DNA from: Propionibacteriales bacterium | GTDB taxonomy: Bacteria > Actinomycetota > Actinomycetes > Propionibacteriales > Nocardioidaceae | Assembly (NCBI GenBank): GCA_026392455.1 | Contig: JAPLCB010000008.1 | Span: forward strand, 248,001-312,000 | Direction: 5' to 3' | Length of the DNA: 64,000 bases | In this document: positions 1 through 9,681 of the stretch, piece after piece | Layout: every line of letters starts with the position of its first letter | Numbering within the stretch: the stretch's first letter is position 1 | The notes under the pieces: model-generated | Databases searched by the model: none | Seen by the model: the letters and a program-made list of their open reading frames with translations, nothing else | Told to the model about the DNA's origin: nothing | Program-made: the position numbers and the translations under genes

Positions 1-306
1 ACGCTCCTCAAGGCCCACCGCCAGACGTGCGTGCCGCGACGTGACAGCAGGGTCAGCATGCGTCGCCGCCGCTGCCCACTGGCCGACGTTTGCCTTACCT
101 GAAGCGACTGCCGCTCGGGAGCGCTCCGCCTCGGCCAGAATTCTGAGCTTGAAGGCGGCCAGCATCGCCTCCATCCGCGCGAGCCGTCGAACCATGGCCT
201 CCAACCCGCCTGCGGCGATCCCGGCGAGATCAACCTGGCTGAGATCTCCGAGGCAGACCTCGGCAGCATCCACCGGGGTGGTCACCAGCTCGGAGGTCAA
301 CGTCAT
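1..306 (-). CDS. DUF222/HNH endonuclease family protein (13E12 type), N-terminal part only
   Basis: The gene reads leftwards from an ATG at 306 and stays open to the window edge, giving 102 N-terminal residues; the rest lies outside. AAGGA sits about 7 bases upstream of the ATG. The visible part has the short acidic leader, then a helix-rich segment (GGLEAMVRRLARMEAM, then FKLRILAEAERSRAA) and a small-residue stretch (VGQWAAAATHADP). This is how DUF222-containing proteins with a C-terminal HNH nuclease begin in Nocardioides and mycobacteria; the HNH part cannot be seen here. These genes are multicopy, mobile-looking and of unknown role. A perfect SOS box lies 15 bases upstream of the start, so LexA control is likely. 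Family assignment is from the N-terminus alone and is therefore moderate. Confidence 0.7.
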   Translation of the reverse strand, partial: MTLTSELVTTPVDAAEVCLGDLSQVDLAGIAAGGLEAMVRRLARMEAMLAAFKLRILAEAERSRAAVASGKANVGQWAAAATHADPAVTSRHARLAVGLEER

Positions 307-849: not shown

Positions 850-1701
850 ATGAAGTCACTGGGTCTTGACCTTGGTGAGCTCGCCAAGAGGTTCTCCGAG
901 CAAGCGGTCGGAACCAAGCCTCACGGGTACGTTCTCGTCGAAGCCAACCCCGACAGTGCGCAAAAGTGGGCCGAACTTCTAGGCGTGCCCGTGCGCCGCT
1001 GCCACTTCAGCGACTCAGACCTGGAAGCACGCGCAGCCGCTGGCATCTCGGCCAACGACTTCGCCGAGGCTTTCCTGCCGCCGCCAGGGCCTACCCGGTC
1101 AGGGAACTTCGGCGAAATGCTCGCCGCTCTCTATCTCGCCGCGAAGAAGCATCCGACCGAGGTCCTCGACCCGCTCAAGTGGCGCTTCATCAACGACAAG
1201 CTCAAACCGGCGCCGAAGTCCGACGTCGTGCAGCTGGAACTCCCGGAGTGGCCGGATCCAAGTCCCGAGGACCTGGTTACCTGCGCCGAGGTAAAGGCGA
1301 GGGCCACCAAAGGGCCCAAGGGCAAGCCGACATCGGTCGAAAATGCGCTCGCGGGTTCGATCGATGACCGCGACGGGCGTCTTGATAAGACCTTGAACTG
1401 GCTCAAAGACATGGCGATCCGAGCAGGAGTGGAGGGGATCACCATTGAGCAGCTCGACCGGTTCATCTCCCCTACGGACTTCGGCGCCTACCGGAAGGAC
1501 TACAAGGCGATCGCGGTGATCGAGGCCAAGCTCGTCGCGGACGAGACTGCCAGCATTCCCGAGATCCACGACGGGTGCACCCTGATCGTCGTGTCGTTCA
1601 CCGGCCTCAAGGATGCTTACACCGCAACGTACGCCGAAATGATCGCTAGCGCGCAGGTTCACATCGACGCAAAGGGCGACGCGAACGAGGAAGCCTCATG
1701 A
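850..1701 (+). CDS. hamA: Hachiman anti-phage protein HamA (DUF1837 nuclease)
   Basis: This 283-residue protein has the arrangement of DUF1837/HamA, the effector nuclease of the Hachiman defence system. A PD-(D/E)XK-like active site can be read: GNFGE (Glu89) on the first helix, Asp125 in KSDVV, and Glu147-Val-Lys149 in CAEVKAR. Established knowledge: HamA is held inactive by the helicase HamB and degrades DNA when HamB meets damaged or unusual DNA, causing abortive protection. AAGG nine bases upstream supports the ATG at 850. The stop overlaps the hamB start (ATGA), so the two are translationally coupled. The adjacency of a helicase of the correct size and order makes the identification firm, although individual residues of DUF1837 are poorly conserved. 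Confidence 0.88.
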   Translation: MKSLGLDLGELAKRFSEQAVGTKPHGYVLVEANPDSAQKWAELLGVPVRRCHFSDSDLEARAAAGISANDFAEAFLPPPGPTRSGNFGEMLAALYLAAKKHPTEVLDPLKWRFINDKLKPAPKSDVVQLELPEWPDPSPEDLVTCAEVKARATKGPKGKPTSVENALAGSIDDRDGRLDKTLNWLKDMAIRAGVEGITIEQLDRFISPTDFGAYRKDYKAIAVIEAKLVADETASIPEIHDGCTLIVVSFTGLKDAYTATYAEMIASAQVHIDAKGDANEEAS

Positions 1702-4679
1702 GGGACGTCCTGCGCGAGTGGATCGCGGACGCCGAAACCCGAGGCAATGTTGCCGCATTCGGTATCGCTGAACTTTTGCCCGACCTGGCTTACCAGGAAG
1801 GCAGGAACTCGGACCTCCGCTCGTCTCTGGTCGGGGAGCTGTTCGACCTGCTGCGAAATGGAACATCTGAACCACGCGACTGGGCCACGGTGGGCAGCGG
1901 CCTCGCCCGAGCCGCTCGCCCGCTGACCGAGGCCGCACGGTCCGAAACTTTGTTCTACGCCGCGGCTGCCTACTATCTCGGTGGGTACTCAGCTTCTGCC
2001 TACGTCACGATGCGCCCAGTGCGTGCTGAGCACCTAGGCGATGAGGTGTACGGGACCTGTTACGACCTTCTGGCTCGCTCGCGGAGCAATAACTCCGAAC
2101 AGGTCCGCGAACTTATGAACGGCCTTCGCGAGGGTGAGGGCCTCACGGCGACCAGGCTCCGCGACCAGGCTCGCGAAGCTGTCGACGACGCTCTAAGTAG
2201 CGGCCCGGACGAATGGGTCGGCGCGACCCTGCTCGCAGCACTTCTCGAGCGCTTCGCAGCCACCAACGTCCGCGCCGTCCTGCCCAACGGAGCTGATCCT
2301 CGGTGGAGCCCACTGGTCGGATCGTTTCTTGATCGCCGTCCGCCTGTGTGGGACTTCTTCCCGTCTCAGCGTGAAGCGATCGATGCCGGCCTGCTCACCA
2401 GCAATGAGACCTACTCGCTGCAGATGCCAACCGGGGCAGGCAAAACCGCGCTGACCGAGACCCTGATCTACAACCATCTGGTCGGCAACGACACCGACCT
2501 TGCCGTCCTTCTCGTCCCGTTCCGTTCTCTGGGTTCCGAACTGCGCGCTTCATTGGGGCAGAACCTGACAGACCTCGGGTACCCGACCAAGACCGTCTAC
2601 GGCGGGATCGTCCCCTCTTCGGAGGAAACCTCCGATATCGAATCGGCCCGCGTGATCATCGCAACTCCGGAGTCGCTCACCGGACTGCTCGACAGCGTGC
2701 CCGAGCTCTTGGATCGGTTGACCTTGCTCGTGTGCGACGAGGGGCACCTAGTCGAGTCCGAGGGCCGGGGAGTCGGACTTGAACTGCTCCTGGCACGCTT
2801 CCTCGCCCGTGACACCCCGCCCCGAGTCGTGTTCATCTCCGCGATCGTCCCGAACATTGAGGACCTCAACTCTTGGCTCGGCGGAACGGACGAGACTGTC
2901 GTCCGAAGCGACTTCCGGCCAGCCGACATCGAGTACAGCGTCCTACGGCCCAGCGAGAAGGCCGGCCGCAAACTCAGAGTCGCATTGGAGATGAAGCCTC
3001 CGGCCGACACGACGCTGCCCATCCGGATCCTTCCGGGGTTTCTGACCGCCGACGACTTCGACTTCACCAACTCTGACACCGGCAAGCAGAAGATCTGGGC
3101 GAACGGCTCGGTGAAGGCACAAGCGGTCGCCGCCGCTCGCAAAGCACTCCCGCTCGGCGTCGCCGCTGTATTCTCCACCGCGAAGTCCGGGAACCAGGGC
3201 GTCCTTGCTCTCGCTGAGGAGCTCTCCAAGCAGCGCACGGTTGGTCTACCCCTTCCAGACCCAGCGCAGTTCGTCCCCCAGGAGTCCCTCCAACGCGTCG
3301 CGCATGTTCTCGACTACCTGACGACTGAATACGGCGCAGAGTGGGCAGGTACGACCGCTCTGAGCGACGGAGCGATCGTTCACCACGGTGACGTCCCGCA
3401 GGAGACTCGCGAGGTCCTCGAAGACCTCCTACGAGGTGGGCACATCAAGTTGGTGTTCTGCACCGGCACTCTGGCCGAAGGAGTGAACCTCCCGATCAAG
3501 ACCCTCGTGCTGTACTCGACGAGCCGCATGAAGGACGGAACACGAGTGCAGCTCCTCATCCGCGAGATCAAGAACCTAGTCGGACGGGCGGGACGCGCCG
3601 GAAGCGAAACCAAGGGGCTGGTCATCTGCGCGAACCCGGCCAGCTGGGCCAGAGTGTCGCAGGTCGCCGACGGCGCCACCGGGGAGAACGTCAGGGGCGC
3701 ACTGCTCACCCTTTTGCAGCAAGCCAACCTGAGGACGTCCGGCCCGCTGACCAACGACCTCCTCGAAGGTGACTCAGATTGGCTTGCACTCGCTGACGGA
3801 ATCGACGCGACGTTGCTCGAACTGCTACACGACGACCTCGGAGCCGAGGAGTTCGAAGCGTTCGCGCTCCGTCTCGCCGACAGCACCTATGCATTTCGCC
3901 AGGCCAACGACGATGCCAAGCGTGACCTGGAACGTGTCTTCTCGCTTCGGGCTAGGCGGCTCCTCTCGCTTCGTGCCAACGGCCGACTCGGCCTGTCGAC
4001 CGGAACCGGGGCACGCGTCAGGCTTGTCGACAGTGTCCTAGACGGACTCCTCCCATCCTTTGGCCGTTGGACCGCCGACGACACCACCCTCGATGACGAG
4101 TTGCTGGCTTCGTTTGTGGGTTGGGCATGGACCCGGCCCGAGATGCGTTCGGCGCTGATGTGGAACTACTACCGCAAGGCCTACGAGCACGAAGCTGAAT
4201 TGCCTCCGGCCGACGACCTGCTGCGCCACCTTCGTCTGTGGCTCTCGGGTCGGACGTTCCATTCGATCTCCGAACAACATCCCAGGGACATCGACGATGT
4301 CCTCAGAATCCACGCCGGGGTCGTGGCCTTCACCTTCGCCACTCTGGTGGAACAGGCTGTAGCGGTTCTCGGCAAGTACTTCGAAGGACGCGGAGAGGAG
4401 CTCTCGCTCGGGCTATCGGTCGTGCCCGCCTACCTGCGGCACGGAACGAGGGACCCGGATGCGTTGGAGCTCCTGACAAACGGGGTTCGGCATCGGCGGG
4501 CAGCGATCCTCTTGGCCGGCAACTTCGACGACCTGAACCCCGACACTTTCTTCCTCGACGCGAGAGAGAAGGCCGCCCTGATCCTTGAGACCGACCCCGG
4601 TCGCTGGGTGAACGAACTCGGACGGTTCGTGTTCGACCGTACGGTCCGTGACGTGGGAGCAGACATTCCGCTGTCATAG
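1698..4679 (+). CDS. hamB: Hachiman anti-phage helicase HamB
   Basis: This 993-residue superfamily 2 helicase is the sensor partner of HamA. Motifs in order: Walker A PTGAGKT (244-250), TPESL (323-327), Walker B DEGH (347-350), motif III SAIVPN (381-386), and motif VI GRAGRAG near 629-635. The ~220 residues before the first motif are mostly helical and typical of HamB; the ~350 residues after motif VI show no domain I recognise. Established knowledge: HamB surveys DNA and releases HamA nuclease on activation. The ATG overlaps the hamA stop by four bases. About 100 bases separate its end from the convergent FRG gene. Confidence 0.9.
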   Translation: MRDVLREWIADAETRGNVAAFGIAELLPDLAYQEGRNSDLRSSLVGELFDLLRNGTSEPRDWATVGSGLARAARPLTEAARSETLFYAAAAYYLGGYSASAYVTMRPVRAEHLGDEVYGTCYDLLARSRSNNSEQVRELMNGLREGEGLTATRLRDQAREAVDDALSSGPDEWVGATLLAALLERFAATNVRAVLPNGADPRWSPLVGSFLDRRPPVWDFFPSQREAIDAGLLTSNETYSLQMPTGAGKTALTETLIYNHLVGNDTDLAVLLVPFRSLGSELRASLGQNLTDLGYPTKTVYGGIVPSSEETSDIESARVIIATPESLTGLLDSVPELLDRLTLLVCDEGHLVESEGRGVGLELLLARFLARDTPPRVVFISAIVPNIEDLNSWLGGTDETVVRSDFRPADIEYSVLRPSEKAGRKLRVALEMKPPADTTLPIRILPGFLTADDFDFTNSDTGKQKIWANGSVKAQAVAAARKALPLGVAAVFSTAKSGNQGVLALAEELSKQRTVGLPLPDPAQFVPQESLQRVAHVLDYLTTEYGAEWAGTTALSDGAIVHHGDVPQETREVLEDLLRGGHIKLVFCTGTLAEGVNLPIKTLVLYSTSRMKDGTRVQLLIREIKNLVGRAGRAGSETKGLVICANPASWARVSQVADGATGENVRGALLTLLQQANLRTSGPLTNDLLEGDSDWLALADGIDATLLELLHDDLGAEEFEAFALRLADSTYAFRQANDDAKRDLERVFSLRARRLLSLRANGRLGLSTGTGARVRLVDSVLDGLLPSFGRWTADDTTLDDELLASFVGWAWTRPEMRSALMWNYYRKAYEHEAELPPADDLLRHLRLWLSGRTFHSISEQHPRDIDDVLRIHAGVVAFTFATLVEQAVAVLGKYFEGRGEELSLGLSVVPAYLRHGTRDPDALELLTNGVRHRRAAILLAGNFDDLNPDTFFLDAREKAALILETDPGRWVNELGRFVFDRTVRDVGADIPLS

Positions 4680-4782: not shown

Positions 4783-6762
4783 TTATACCGAGATGACCGT
4801 AGCGTCAGGACCCGCGCCGACATGCCCTCGCTGTTCTGGGAGATGATCTGGACCGCTGCCCTGTGGGCTCAACCAATCCGACTTGTCTCGGAGGAGGGTG
4901 CTCATGCCCTGGATGTCGGGGTAGACGAGGGAGGTCGAGTACCCGTAGCTGGACGTGAGCATTTCGCGGATCTCTTTCTTTGCTTCTGCGCCGATTCGGA
5001 ATGAGAAGAGAGGTGCTACTCGAGCTTTGCTTGGCCGGGCGCGCCGTCTTGGGTGCGCTGGCCTGGCGTAGATCGACATCGACGCAGCGATGTCGGCGAC
5101 GTTCCACTGTCCGCTCTTGCCGTCCGTGAACAGCCTGATGTTGGTCTGGGTGAGCATCGGGACGCCTTCAAGGAGGAATGCCGCGTTTTGGGCTGCGATG
5201 CGTGGGTCGTATGCCGGCGGAACCCAGAGGCGGCGCAATGTACCTGTTCCCCAGTCTGCTCGTGCTCGTAGTTCTAGTGAGTTGTAGTCGTTCCAGAACG
5301 GATAGCGCTTGGCGCCGAGGACCTCTTTGAGGAGTGGGTCTTCGGCCTGTTCTTCGCCTTCTTCGAGGGGTGGGGATGTGGCGAGCGCGAACAGTCGGGC
5401 GTCGTTGCCGTCTTCCTTGCCGGGTTCGACTGCGAACCATGCTGCGATTAGTGGGTTGCGTGTCACGTCAAGGAGTCTTGTTGGTCCCCCGTGGTGTTGG
5501 AGTCGTGCGAACAGTTCGAGGGCTGGGACTTCTGACATACGCCAGTCGGCGGCCTCGAGGATGAGGGCGACTTCAGCTTCGAGCATCTGTGTTTCGTCGG
5601 GAAATGGCTTGCCGGACTCTTTGACGGGCTTGGCGGGACTTGCCTGAATCCCGTTGTGGTCCATGAGTCGGCGGTAGAGGCTGCTGTGCAGGCCCCAGTT
5701 CGCGTTCTGTTGGCCGCGCCATACGAATTTGAGGTCGGGGTTCTTTACTGCGAGCGCTGCAATTTCTCGCGTGAGGGTGGCAAAGGAGTCGACCTCGACT
5801 TCGTGGGCGGCAAAGAAGTCTCCGGGGCCGGTGAACTCCGGCGAGAACTCCCCGTCGATCGGTACAAGTTGTTGTGGAATGGGTTTGCTTGACCCCTGGG
5901 GGTCGTCCGCGAACCCTCTCGGAGCATGCTTGGCGATCTCAAGAGCGACAGCCGGGTCGTTGACGAACGTGCCGCCATTCGCCTGGTTTCGCAGTGCGTG
6001 GCGGATCGCAGTTTGGACCTCTGGAGATGACGCGGCGTCGCGTGCTTCGTCAGCGAGCGCCTTGGACACCGCTGCTTCAACAGGAGTTTGGCCGAATCCT
6101 GCGAAACGCGCCAAACTCGGAGACTCACGTCGAACTGCGCGCTCCACTTCACGGCGGACGTCCGGTCCCGACACTGCATCGCGCGCCAACTCGAGCAGCG
6201 CCTTATTGACCGCCGCTTCGGCCGGCGACTGTCCGAAGCCTGTTATCCGGGCCAGGCCGTATGACTCGCGCCGTACAGCCCTTTCGATGTCGCGGCGCGT
6301 CTCCGGTGTCGCAACGGCGTCTCTGGCCATTTCGAGCATGACCTTGTTGACCGCGGCTTCTGCCGGTGTCTGCCCGAACCCGACCATGCGCGCCAGCCCT
6401 GGCGATTCACGGCGGACAGCTCGTTCCAGTTCGCGTCGCACCTCGGGGGTTGACACAGCGTCTCGAGCTATGTCTGAAAGCGCGGAACTCACTGCCTGCT
6501 CGATCGCTGACTGGCCAAGACCGACCATTCCCGCTACTCCGTGCGCCCGACCATTGACTGCCCGCTCGATCGCTGCCCGCACCTCGGGAGTCGCAACGGC
6601 GCGCTGGGCAGCTTCCGCGAGGGCGTCGTCTGCCGCGCCCGCGACCGATCGTTCGGACGGTCCCACGGTGACGCCCGGCGCACTCGCTTCTGGTGCGACC
6701 GTTGAGTCGTCACCGTCGTTGTCGTCTGCCGACCCTGGGCTCACCCTAGACAAGTTAGCCAA
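4783..6762 (-). CDS. FRG-domain protein with four 47-residue N-terminal repeats
   Basis: About 659 residues. An acidic, low-complexity N-terminus (1-60) is followed by four tandem 47-residue repeats (61-248; consensus ERAVRRESPGLARMVGFGQ then TPAEAAVNKALLELARDAVS) and the start of a fifth. The FRG domain follows: FVWRGQ (346-351), LQHHGGPTRLLDVTRNPL (421-438), IAAWFA, and NAAFLLEG in the expected last motif. FRG domains occur in many bacterial accessory and defence loci; the biochemical activity is not established to my knowledge. The start shown is TTG; GTG at 6744, preceded by AGG, would remove six residues and may be the real start. It is convergent with hamB, so it has its own promoter. 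It could be a second, independent defence gene or an ancillary part of the island. Confidence 0.8.
   Translation of the reverse strand: MANLSRVSPGSADDNDGDDSTVAPEASAPGVTVGPSERSVAGAADDALAEAAQRAVATPEVRAAIERAVNGRAHGVAGMVGLGQSAIEQAVSSALSDIARDAVSTPEVRRELERAVRRESPGLARMVGFGQTPAEAAVNKVMLEMARDAVATPETRRDIERAVRRESYGLARITGFGQSPAEAAVNKALLELARDAVSGPDVRREVERAVRRESPSLARFAGFGQTPVEAAVSKALADEARDAASSPEVQTAIRHALRNQANGGTFVNDPAVALEIAKHAPRGFADDPQGSSKPIPQQLVPIDGEFSPEFTGPGDFFAAHEVEVDSFATLTREIAALAVKNPDLKFVWRGQQNANWGLHSSLYRRLMDHNGIQASPAKPVKESGKPFPDETQMLEAEVALILEAADWRMSEVPALELFARLQHHGGPTRLLDVTRNPLIAAWFAVEPGKEDGNDARLFALATSPPLEEGEEQAEDPLLKEVLGAKRYPFWNDYNSLELRARADWGTGTLRRLWVPPAYDPRIAAQNAAFLLEGVPMLTQTNIRLFTDGKSGQWNVADIAASMSIYARPAHPRRRARPSKARVAPLFSFRIGAEAKKEIREMLTSSYGYSTSLVYPDIQGMSTLLRDKSDWLSPQGSGPDHLPEQRGHVGAGPDATVISV
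6019..6582 (-). repeat. Four in-frame 141-bp tandem repeats inside the FRG gene
   Basis: These encode residues 61-248. Each unit is 47 residues with an alternating charged helix (VRRE.ERAVRRES), a glycine-rich turn (GFGQ) and an alanine-rich helix (EAAVNKALLE.ARDAVS.PE). Units 2-4 are more alike than unit 1, suggesting later duplications. Confidence 0.85.
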
Positions 6763-6953: not shown

Positions 6954-7517
6954 GTGAAGCCGGGCGCTAGGGACGCATCCGTACGCGATGACCTTGAGAC
7001 CTTGACTGAGGACTCCCCTGGATACGTAGTGATGCGCGAAGGTGTCGACAACGAACTGCCGTTCGAGGTGGGGGATCCCGTAACCACTTACCCGCTCGGA
7101 GACAAGTACCCGTACAAGCACCTGCCGCCGCACCGTGGGCGGCATGTCTCTGATCAGGCCTACTACGAAGCGGTCGCGATGTACGCGAACCTGGAGAAGC
7201 ACTGGCGAGTCCAGAAGCACCTGCGGTGTGACTGCAAGTCGTGGCGTTCCATCGCCCGTCTGATGGTTCACGTTCCATCCAAACGACTGTGGGTCTTTCA
7301 CAACCCCGAGGATGTCGCCAAGCCGTTCCGCACCCCGGTCCTGCAGGAACGCAACCTGGCCTTCCCTCTTCACGGAGCTCCGGGAGAGGCACCACACGTA
7401 CATGGCGTGTCGTCGTGCAACGGGTGCGACAAACGCTGGCTCGTAGTCTCGTTCCACGACCACGCCGAGATCATTCACGTCCAGAGCGCGACCCACGGCG
7501 CAAAGGTCGCGCCATAA
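6954..7517 (+). CDS. Cys/His-rich hypothetical protein
   Basis: This frame encodes 187 residues from GTG at 6954, or 161 from ATG at 7032; the start is unsure because neither has a strong ribosome site. The plus frame is preferred to the overlapping minus frame because its third positions are mostly G or C and its composition is protein-like. Clustered metal-ligand residues are visible: RCDCKS in the middle and CNGCDKRW, HVHG and FHDHAEIIHV near the C-terminus. I recognise no family; a zinc-binding fold is possible. It lies between the FRG gene and a small membrane protein in the island. Confidence 0.55.
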   Translation: MKPGARDASVRDDLETLTEDSPGYVVMREGVDNELPFEVGDPVTTYPLGDKYPYKHLPPHRGRHVSDQAYYEAVAMYANLEKHWRVQKHLRCDCKSWRSIARLMVHVPSKRLWVFHNPEDVAKPFRTPVLQERNLAFPLHGAPGEAPHVHGVSSCNGCDKRWLVVSFHDHAEIIHVQSATHGAKVAP

Positions 7518-7620: not shown

Positions 7621-7860
7621 ATGCCCCAAGCACGTCACCGTCGCGACGTCCAAGCCACCCGGCGCGAGCGGCTCAGCCTCGTCGTCGCGGGCCTTTCGCT
7701 GCTATTCACCGTCCTCGCCTACCTCGACCAGTGCGCTCAGGGCACCGACCCGGCGCCAACCGAGACCAACATCTATCTGCCCCCGTCGTCCCCGTGCCAG
7801 CCGCCGCGCATCAACTCGGTCTTAGATCACCGAGACTCTGGGGCGGACCATGCCGATTGA
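7621..7860 (+). CDS. Small single-pass membrane protein
   Basis: Start ATG at 7621 follows a good AGAGGAG ribosome site. The 79 residues comprise a basic N-terminus (ARHRRDVQATRRER), one hydrophobic segment (LSLVVAGLSLLFTVLAYL) and a short polar, proline-rich tail, consistent with an N-in single-pass protein. Its 3' end overlaps the convergent nuclease gene by 34 bases. Family not recognised. An imperfect inverted repeat (GACACC at 7523, GGTGTC at 7539) lies upstream. Confidence 0.6.
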   Translation: MPQARHRRDVQATRRERLSLVVAGLSLLFTVLAYLDQCAQGTDPAPTETNIYLPPSSPCQPPRINSVLDHRDSGADHAD

Positions 7861-9395
7861 GTCGGCGCGGGCGACTCCTCGCTCAACGTTGATGCAGCTG
7901 AGACAGCACCCCAGGGTCCGGCATCGAAGGCTTTGTCATCCTGGTCGCCCTCGCCCTCGACCTCGGTAGAGGTGGGTTCACCCTGCAGATCTGCGTCCGT
8001 CGACCCTGCGTCTGGAGCCATGACCAGAGCGCGTTCATCGTCCCCCAAGGGGGACTCCGTAGTCGGATCATCCTGCGACGAAAGCGCTGTGGAAACCAGT
8101 GACGCAGGAACACCCGTCGGGAGCTCCGGTTCGTCGCGAAGCTTGGGCGGCGCCGCCGACCACGGCTTCAACTGCTGAAGAACCTGCTGATAGAAGTCGT
8201 CGACCGAGTCGATGACTGAGTCGATGAAGCCACCCCTACCTCGGCCGCGCTTGGAACCCATGTTCGACGCGCTCGCGACGCGGAACCCACGCACGTCCTT
8301 CGTCGGATCGATGATTAGAACGGATGGATCGTCGCGCACCACGCCAAGAAGTTCTGAAGCTCCTTGGCCGCGCTGGTTGGCAACGAAGGCCTCGACGCGG
8401 ACAGACCCCGGCGCTTCCTTTAGTTGCCTCGTCAGCCAGTTGACCCGGGTTGCGGGGCGGCCTGTCTTCGGAGACTCCAGGTCGACCTGACAGGTGACCT
8501 TGGACGACCGGAGGTCGGCAGTGATCTGAATGTCTCCAACGGTGCCGGGCACTCGGATGAACCCAGACAAGGTGCCTTGGCCAACGAGTTCCACCTTCAG
8601 GGCCGCGGCTCGCAGGGCCGGGTCTGCTGACTCCTTGCGGTTGAGCTGATGTGTTACCTCCGTGCCAAGTCTGCGGCCGAGGTGGAGGGCTGTGTATCGG
8701 AGCATCGCGTCGAATCGAGACGTGACTCCGGCGATCGTTGAATCCGTTGCGCGAAGAGTGCCGGCCGCGACTGCCTCGCGAAGCGTGACCCAGTCAGGGC
8801 CCATGTCGTCGAAGTCGAGCGCGCCCGACTTGGGGTGCTCGAGGTATCTGATGAGCTCGCCCAGAATCCACGCCTGATCCGGGTCGGCCACGCCGCGATG
8901 CTCTTTTTGCATCACCGCCTGGGAAAGCACGTGCGACCAAGACAAGTGGTGCAACTGGACGCGCTTGAGCTTGCGCTTATCAATCCCAACTGTTGGGTGC
9001 AGTACCGGGTTTGCGGGAATCTCGTTACTGATCGTAATGAGGGAGTCGAACCCCTCGCCACGGGCAATGTCGAGGTAAGCCTCCAACTGAGGAGCGAGAA
9101 GGTCGTTCTTTCCGGTCTTCACCTCGACGAGAGCCGTCCAAGTCTTTGCCCCGCGCTTGGCGCGAATGAGGCCATCGGGACGGTAGTCACGCTCTCCGAG
9201 TTTGAACGGCACCTCGATGAAGCATTCGATCGTGCCGGCCGGCGCGCCGAAAGGAGCGAGGAGTGTGCGGTTGAACTCCTTGACGGCCATCAACACGGCG
9301 AGCAAGGCGGACGTAGCCCGTCGCTCCTGCTCCTCAGCCCCGGAAATGCCGGAGGTCGGGATCAACCGGGCACTGTGCCACGACTCTTCAGACAT
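7827..9395 (-). CDS. PD-(D/E)XK nuclease-like hypothetical protein
   Basis: 522 residues, ATG start with GAGAGGTG just upstream. The N-terminal third has a restriction-endonuclease-like core: a possible Glu61, Asp74 in YRPDGLI, Glu91-Val-Lys93 in ALVEVKTGK, and Gln103 in PQLEAYLDIA, the pattern of a PD-(D/E)XK nuclease. The middle part (about 200-390) is a mixed alpha/beta region containing RVNWLTRQLKEAP. The last ~110 residues are acidic and low-complexity. I do not recognise a named system. Its place within the island and the nuclease core suggest a defence or DNA-processing role, but no partner gene is adjacent on the same strand. Confidence 0.65.
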   Translation of the reverse strand: MSEESWHSARLIPTSGISGAEEQERRATSALLAVLMAVKEFNRTLLAPFGAPAGTIECFIEVPFKLGERDYRPDGLIRAKRGAKTWTALVEVKTGKNDLLAPQLEAYLDIARGEGFDSLITISNEIPANPVLHPTVGIDKRKLKRVQLHHLSWSHVLSQAVMQKEHRGVADPDQAWILGELIRYLEHPKSGALDFDDMGPDWVTLREAVAAGTLRATDSTIAGVTSRFDAMLRYTALHLGRRLGTEVTHQLNRKESADPALRAAALKVELVGQGTLSGFIRVPGTVGDIQITADLRSSKVTCQVDLESPKTGRPATRVNWLTRQLKEAPGSVRVEAFVANQRGQGASELLGVVRDDPSVLIIDPTKDVRGFRVASASNMGSKRGRGRGGFIDSVIDSVDDFYQQVLQQLKPWSAAPPKLRDEPELPTGVPASLVSTALSSQDDPTTESPLGDDERALVMAPDAGSTDADLQGEPTSTEVEGEGDQDDKAFDAGPWGAVSAASTLSEESPAPTQSAWSAPESR

Positions 9396-9628: not shown

Positions 9629-9681
9629 GACCCCGCCACTGGCCACCACCCCGCAGATCGCTGCCCTGAAGCAAGACCCCC
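9629..9681. repeat. attR-like direct repeat of tRNA-Phe 3' end
   Basis: Matches 515-567 at 48 of 53 bases with an 18-base perfect core that includes the acceptor 3' strand and CCA. The rest of the tRNA is absent, as expected for the distal att copy of an island inserted at a tRNA 3' end. Confidence 0.7.

Follow-up and report, generated by a model that had tools for sequence, protein, structure and literature searches.

A probable Hachiman defence system carried by a 9.1-kb tRNA-Phe island in the genus of Nocardioides pocheonensis

The 64,000-nt stretch of DNA analyzed here (the window) very probably contains a complete Hachiman anti-phage system, as cargo of a 9.1-kb island at a tRNA-Phe gene in the genus of Nocardioides pocheonensis. 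The pair consists of hamA (850–1701) and hamB (1698–4679), two open reading frames on the plus strand. As the first-pass annotation had described, the end of hamA and the start of hamB have ATGA at 1698–1701 in common. Based on this overlap, the two adjacent genes belong to one predicted operon. HamA (283 aa) is a predicted effector nuclease. HamB (993 aa) is an SF2 Ski2-like helicase, based on a PADLOC profile, a PDB match and its motifs. The PADLOC model PDLC00160 for HamA matches residues 1–268 of 283 (E 1e-62), and PDLC00161 also matches this protein (E 4.6e-17). The HamB model, PDLC00194, matches residues 1–987 of 993 (E 1.4e-281). These nearly full-length matches bear out the complete HamA-HamB pair proposed earlier at 850–4679. 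The Hachiman reading is also supported by two relatives, G046 and G008, in which hamA and hamB are likewise side by side. Taken together, the nearly full-length profiles, the gene order, the overlap, and the alignment of catalytic residues to a solved HamAB support the assignment of both proteins as Hachiman components.

The window HamA shows no match to Pfam PF08878 at E ≤ 0.1, and nothing was found in NCBIfam at E 0.1 or in PHROGs at E 0.01. These misses count against the Hachiman reading, as do the weak E-values of the PDB profile search and the alanine before E147, both described below. PF08878, which is now named HamA, does match the Arthrobacter HamA (30.3 bits) and the HamA of a Pseudomonas plasmid (35.6 bits), which are 40% and 34% identical to the window HamA, respectively. 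The cut-off of this model is 25 bits. The family search proposed for HamA, which is not by itself definitive of Hachiman, found no match for the protein itself and did match these two relatives, and the window HamA can be read as a probable divergent member beyond the reach of PF08878.

The catalytic residues that the first-pass annotation listed for HamA, Glu89, Asp125, Glu147 and Lys149, are all in place, the last two as E147-V-K149. D125, E147 and K149 are invariant across six aligned HamAs. The canonical HamA motif is given as D-GEXK (PMC12799240). The residue preceding E147 in the window HamA is A, which is also found in four of the five aligned relatives, while the Pseudomonas one has S. 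The SF2 helicase motifs of HamB are intact, also as described before: PTGAGKT starts at residue 244, DEGH at 347, SAI at 381, HHGDVPQETRE at 562, TGTLAEGVN at 589, and GRAGRAG at 629.

Among the PDB sequences, 61 match HamB at E ≤ 0.001, and the best is the HamB chain 8vx9_B (2.8e-38). D347 of the DEGH motif aligns with D431 of this chain, the position being counted from the printed alignment. The search of PDB with the single HamA sequence found nothing at E ≤ 10. The profile of six HamAs, searched against 177635 PDB sequences, found two matches at E ≤ 10, both of them HamA: 8vx9_A (E 0.028) and 8vxy_A (E 0.063). Each is weak taken alone; the point of this search is the absence of any non-HamA match. 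In the profile alignment, E147 and K149 lie over E138-A-K140 of 8vx9_A, again with counted positions. According to the E. coli HamAB study (PMC12278908), the defence is ablated by HamA E138A,K140A or by HamB D431A, and HamB retains the DEGH residues. Structure prediction, the other check proposed for the pair, was uninformative as to a restriction-nuclease-type fold of HamA and an N-terminal helical domain of HamB. The AlphaFold2 models of HamA (mean pLDDT 37.4, from a three-sequence alignment) and HamB (34.8, from two sequences) are unusable.

By homology to E. coli HamAB, HamA and HamB would form a complex with nuclease and helicase activities, in which HamB surveys DNA and keeps HamA inactive. 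A single-stranded DNA end arising from phage replication or damage would lead HamB to hydrolyze ATP, and the hydrolysis would activate or release the HamA nuclease. The nuclease would then destroy phage and host DNA, resulting in abortive infection. In the same E. coli study, entry of single-stranded DNA into HamB brings about ATP hydrolysis and HamA activation, and both phage and host DNA are lost (PMC12278908).

The integration site is tRNA-Phe(GAA) at 458–534 on the plus strand, the sole tRNA that ARAGORN finds in the window. A 53-nt direct repeat closes the 9.1-kb segment. Its left copy (515–567) consists of the 20 bases at the 3' end of the tRNA and bases downstream, and its right copy (9629–9681), 91% identical, spans the same 20 bases with one mismatch and 33 downstream bases. 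The far boundary of the island, which the first-pass annotation had left unplaced, is at 9629–9681. The ungapped score of the repeat is 43, and the maximum in 20 dinucleotide shuffles of window positions 701–64,000 is 17. When the final 25 bases of the tRNA were searched for with up to three mismatches allowed, the tRNA itself was the only match. The GC content in 1-kb windows is 0.61–0.65 inside the island, and to its right, from 9.5 to 25 kb, it is mostly 0.68–0.73 with a dip to 0.655–0.675 at 16–17.5 kb. The GC contrast of the island is defined here as inside versus right side. The ORF immediately left of the tRNA (1–306, minus strand; also L037:9056-10306) encodes 416 aa and resembles DUF222/HNH proteins by eye. 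In G019, no such ORF was seen next to the tRNA.

The pair was described earlier as probably mobile. Four loci of the window's own genome match PF00589, and none of them is on the contig of the window (C4). With no PF00589 integrase on the contig, the earlier statement holds for the arrival of the island, whereas its present mobility would be hypothetical. The island looks acquired, probably through integration by a recombinase that is no longer on the contig, and there is no sign so far of self-movement.

The island might be a remnant that has been decaying since the loss of its recombinase, and the Hachiman pair might no longer be defending. The contig without a PF00589 match and the imperfect right copy of the repeat are consistent with decay, and in a relative, Arthrobacter sp. 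260, hamB appears split over two frames. However, both window genes are open and near full length compared with the models, and their catalytic residues and motifs are retained. Decay of the window pair is unlikely.

A match to this tRNA is seen in 22 of the 24 genomes of the genus, and long stretches around it were examined in six congeners besides the window's own genome. Genes in these stretches were chosen by a rule based on ORFs and GC position, not by a gene caller. The island is absent at this tRNA in three of the six (G004, G016, and G019). In these three, relatives of the left-flank genes are on one side of the tRNA, such as a P450-like ORF (88% identical), and relatives of the right-flank genes are on the other. 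The distance from the tRNA to the first right-flank gene is about 0.7–1.1 kb. In G004 and G016, the right flank begins with genes for M10 peptidase and patatin; the genes for the sigma factor and the flavin monooxygenase, present there in the window, are lacking in these two genomes. In G019, the first one is the sigma factor gene. In G015, the tRNA is separated from the monooxygenase gene by other genes spanning about 11 kb. Of the window flank genes, G020 showed a match to one only, weak and of dehydrogenase type.

G018 keeps relatives of the flank genes on both sides, and the 3' end of its tRNA recurs as a 43-nt copy about 109 kb downstream. At the tRNA end of this stretch, a TrwC relaxase gene starts about 160 bases past the tRNA; at the far end, a tyrosine integrase gene stops roughly 60 bases short of the 43-nt copy. 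This 109-kb stretch, whose sequence was read at its two 19-kb ends, could be considered as one element. It corresponds to L100 and L101 (G018:C5, about 155.0–264.3 kb). By eye, the tyrosine integrase gene is near type I restriction-like genes.

As an alternative to an inserted island, the repeat at 9629–9681 might have arisen long ago by local duplication of the tRNA end. The repeat is partly the tRNA-proximal terminator arm, which is also present 3' of this tRNA in G004, G015, and G016, and the genes at the right boundary vary among congeners. On the other hand, the repeat score is far above those of the shuffles, the GC content is lower between the copies, and the same tRNA is without the segment in G004, G016, and G019 and carries another large segment in G018. 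A local duplication is very improbable. The direct repeat, the lower GC than on the right side, and the island-free congeners support the tRNA-bounded segment recognized earlier around the pair.

Besides hamA and hamB, the island contains three ORFs. The gene at 4783–6762 (minus strand) encodes an FRG-domain protein with N-terminal repeats, which are spaced at 141 nt (PF08867, 1.5e-16; PDC-S15, 3.9e-27). The repeat is about 47 aa and is present in several copies, and PDC-S15 is a candidate defence family. A limited literature search found no paper on the FRG domain with phage defense. The small ORF at 6954–7517 (plus strand) is uncertain, with GC3 of 0.74 and one weak PHROG match (E 0.0019). 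The gene at 7827–9395 (minus strand) encodes a 522-aa protein, PD-(D/E)XK-like by eye, for which searches of PADLOC, Pfam, NCBIfam and PHROGs gave no match within the limits used. Of 11 records of its plasmid relatives, 10 carry a TerD family annotation. Relatives are on Rhodococcus and Streptomyces plasmids, of which one region was viewed. None was found among viral contigs.

The other island genes might be linked to HamAB in function, but their relatives occur apart from hamAB. Relatives of the FRG protein are present in 3 of 58 genomes including the window's own; the other two, G028 and G002, have no hamA match. The 7827–9395 protein has a match in 9 of the 58, again including its own. In G046, HamAB is located at 7.02 Mb, whereas the relative of this protein is at 2.64 Mb, and in G015, an 88% identical relative is on a contig different from that of the tRNA-Phe. 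Because the relatives occur apart from hamAB, the FRG protein and the 7827–9395 protein are considered as independent cargo, which is the favoured reading from few cases. It can be speculated, at long odds, that large tRNA-Phe elements like that of G018 provide the tyrosine integrase which moves the 9.1-kb island, itself without an integrase, in trans as a defence satellite, and that the FRG-repeat and PD-(D/E)XK-like proteins work with HamAB as one defence unit.

Relatives of hamA are sparse. They are present in 3 of the 58 genomes: the window's own, with a single match, G046, and G008. With the PADLOC model, hamA is found in 2 of 24 genomes of the genus (the window's own and G008) and in 4 of 394 genomes of the class, two of which are partial (22 bits), leaving the window's own and G412. 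A three-row HamA profile finds the window's own genome only among 396 genomes of the phylum. In tblastn searches, HamA matches 1 plasmid record among 72,556 and none of 50,697 phage records. Comparison of the HamA alignment with viral contigs yielded 116 pattern-matching stretches and no relative. A scan of genome contigs yielded 2 loci from 91 pattern matches; it probably misses many, because the patterns lie within the first 46 residues of HamA. No paper on Nocardioides with Hachiman was found in a limited literature search. In Arthrobacter, hamAB adjoins type I restriction genes by eye. The apparent split of hamB in Arthrobacter sp. 260 (L046:10726-14455) consists of two overlapping frames and could be due to sequencing error or decay. 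Another HamB-like helicase, 992 aa long, is encoded in the window's own genome (L042:6269-9247, contig C3), and its best PADLOC model is PDC-M23B (4.5e-53).

A very improbable reading, that this is a HamA/HamB-like nuclease-helicase pair with a non-defence role such as DNA repair, could draw on the matches of HamB to Ski2/Hel308-type helicases in the NCBIfam and PDB searches and on the miss of HamA by Pfam, but PDLC00194 is far above all other PADLOC models for HamB (1.4e-281 vs 3.2e-69 for the next best), and the patchy presence in 3 of 58 relatives, the window's own genome included, fits accessory defence cargo over core repair.

The Hachiman system of the window seems ordinary and is apparently complete, with its mechanism proposed by homology, and it offers little surprise. 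The view of how Hachiman works is unchanged. What is added is a divergent actinobacterial HamA that the curated model of Pfam misses, which is useful for better detection. Besides, the tRNA-Phe in this genus is a site that took up a small defence island in one genome and a far larger element in another.

Among known systems, HamAB of E. coli ECOR31 (PDB 8VX9) shares with the window pair the two components, the DEGH helicase HamB, and the D...E-x-K of HamA (PMC12278908). The catalytic residues align, although the two systems are distant: HamB matches with 134 bits over two stretches, and HamA by profile only (E 0.028). The window HamB is 993 aa, whereas the 8VX9 chain is 1174 aa. Another HamA is encoded by the Pseudomonas aeruginosa plasmid CP137918.1, whose submitters gave it the annotation Hachiman HamA, a further point in favour of the Hachiman reading. 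It shows 33% identity over 95% of the window HamA and also matches PDLC00160, but unlike the window HamA, it passes PF08878. By description, an IS30-family transposase gene lies between its hamA and the annotated helicase. In the same genus, Nocardioides pocheonensis Gsoil 818 (G008; L047) has a HamA 38% and a HamB 51% identical to those of the window, in the same gene order and with an ATGA-type overlap. Its HamB differs in being extended at the C terminus by about 240 aa, and its hamAB, unlike that of the window, adjoins a TrwC relaxase gene, with a Vsr gene there as well.
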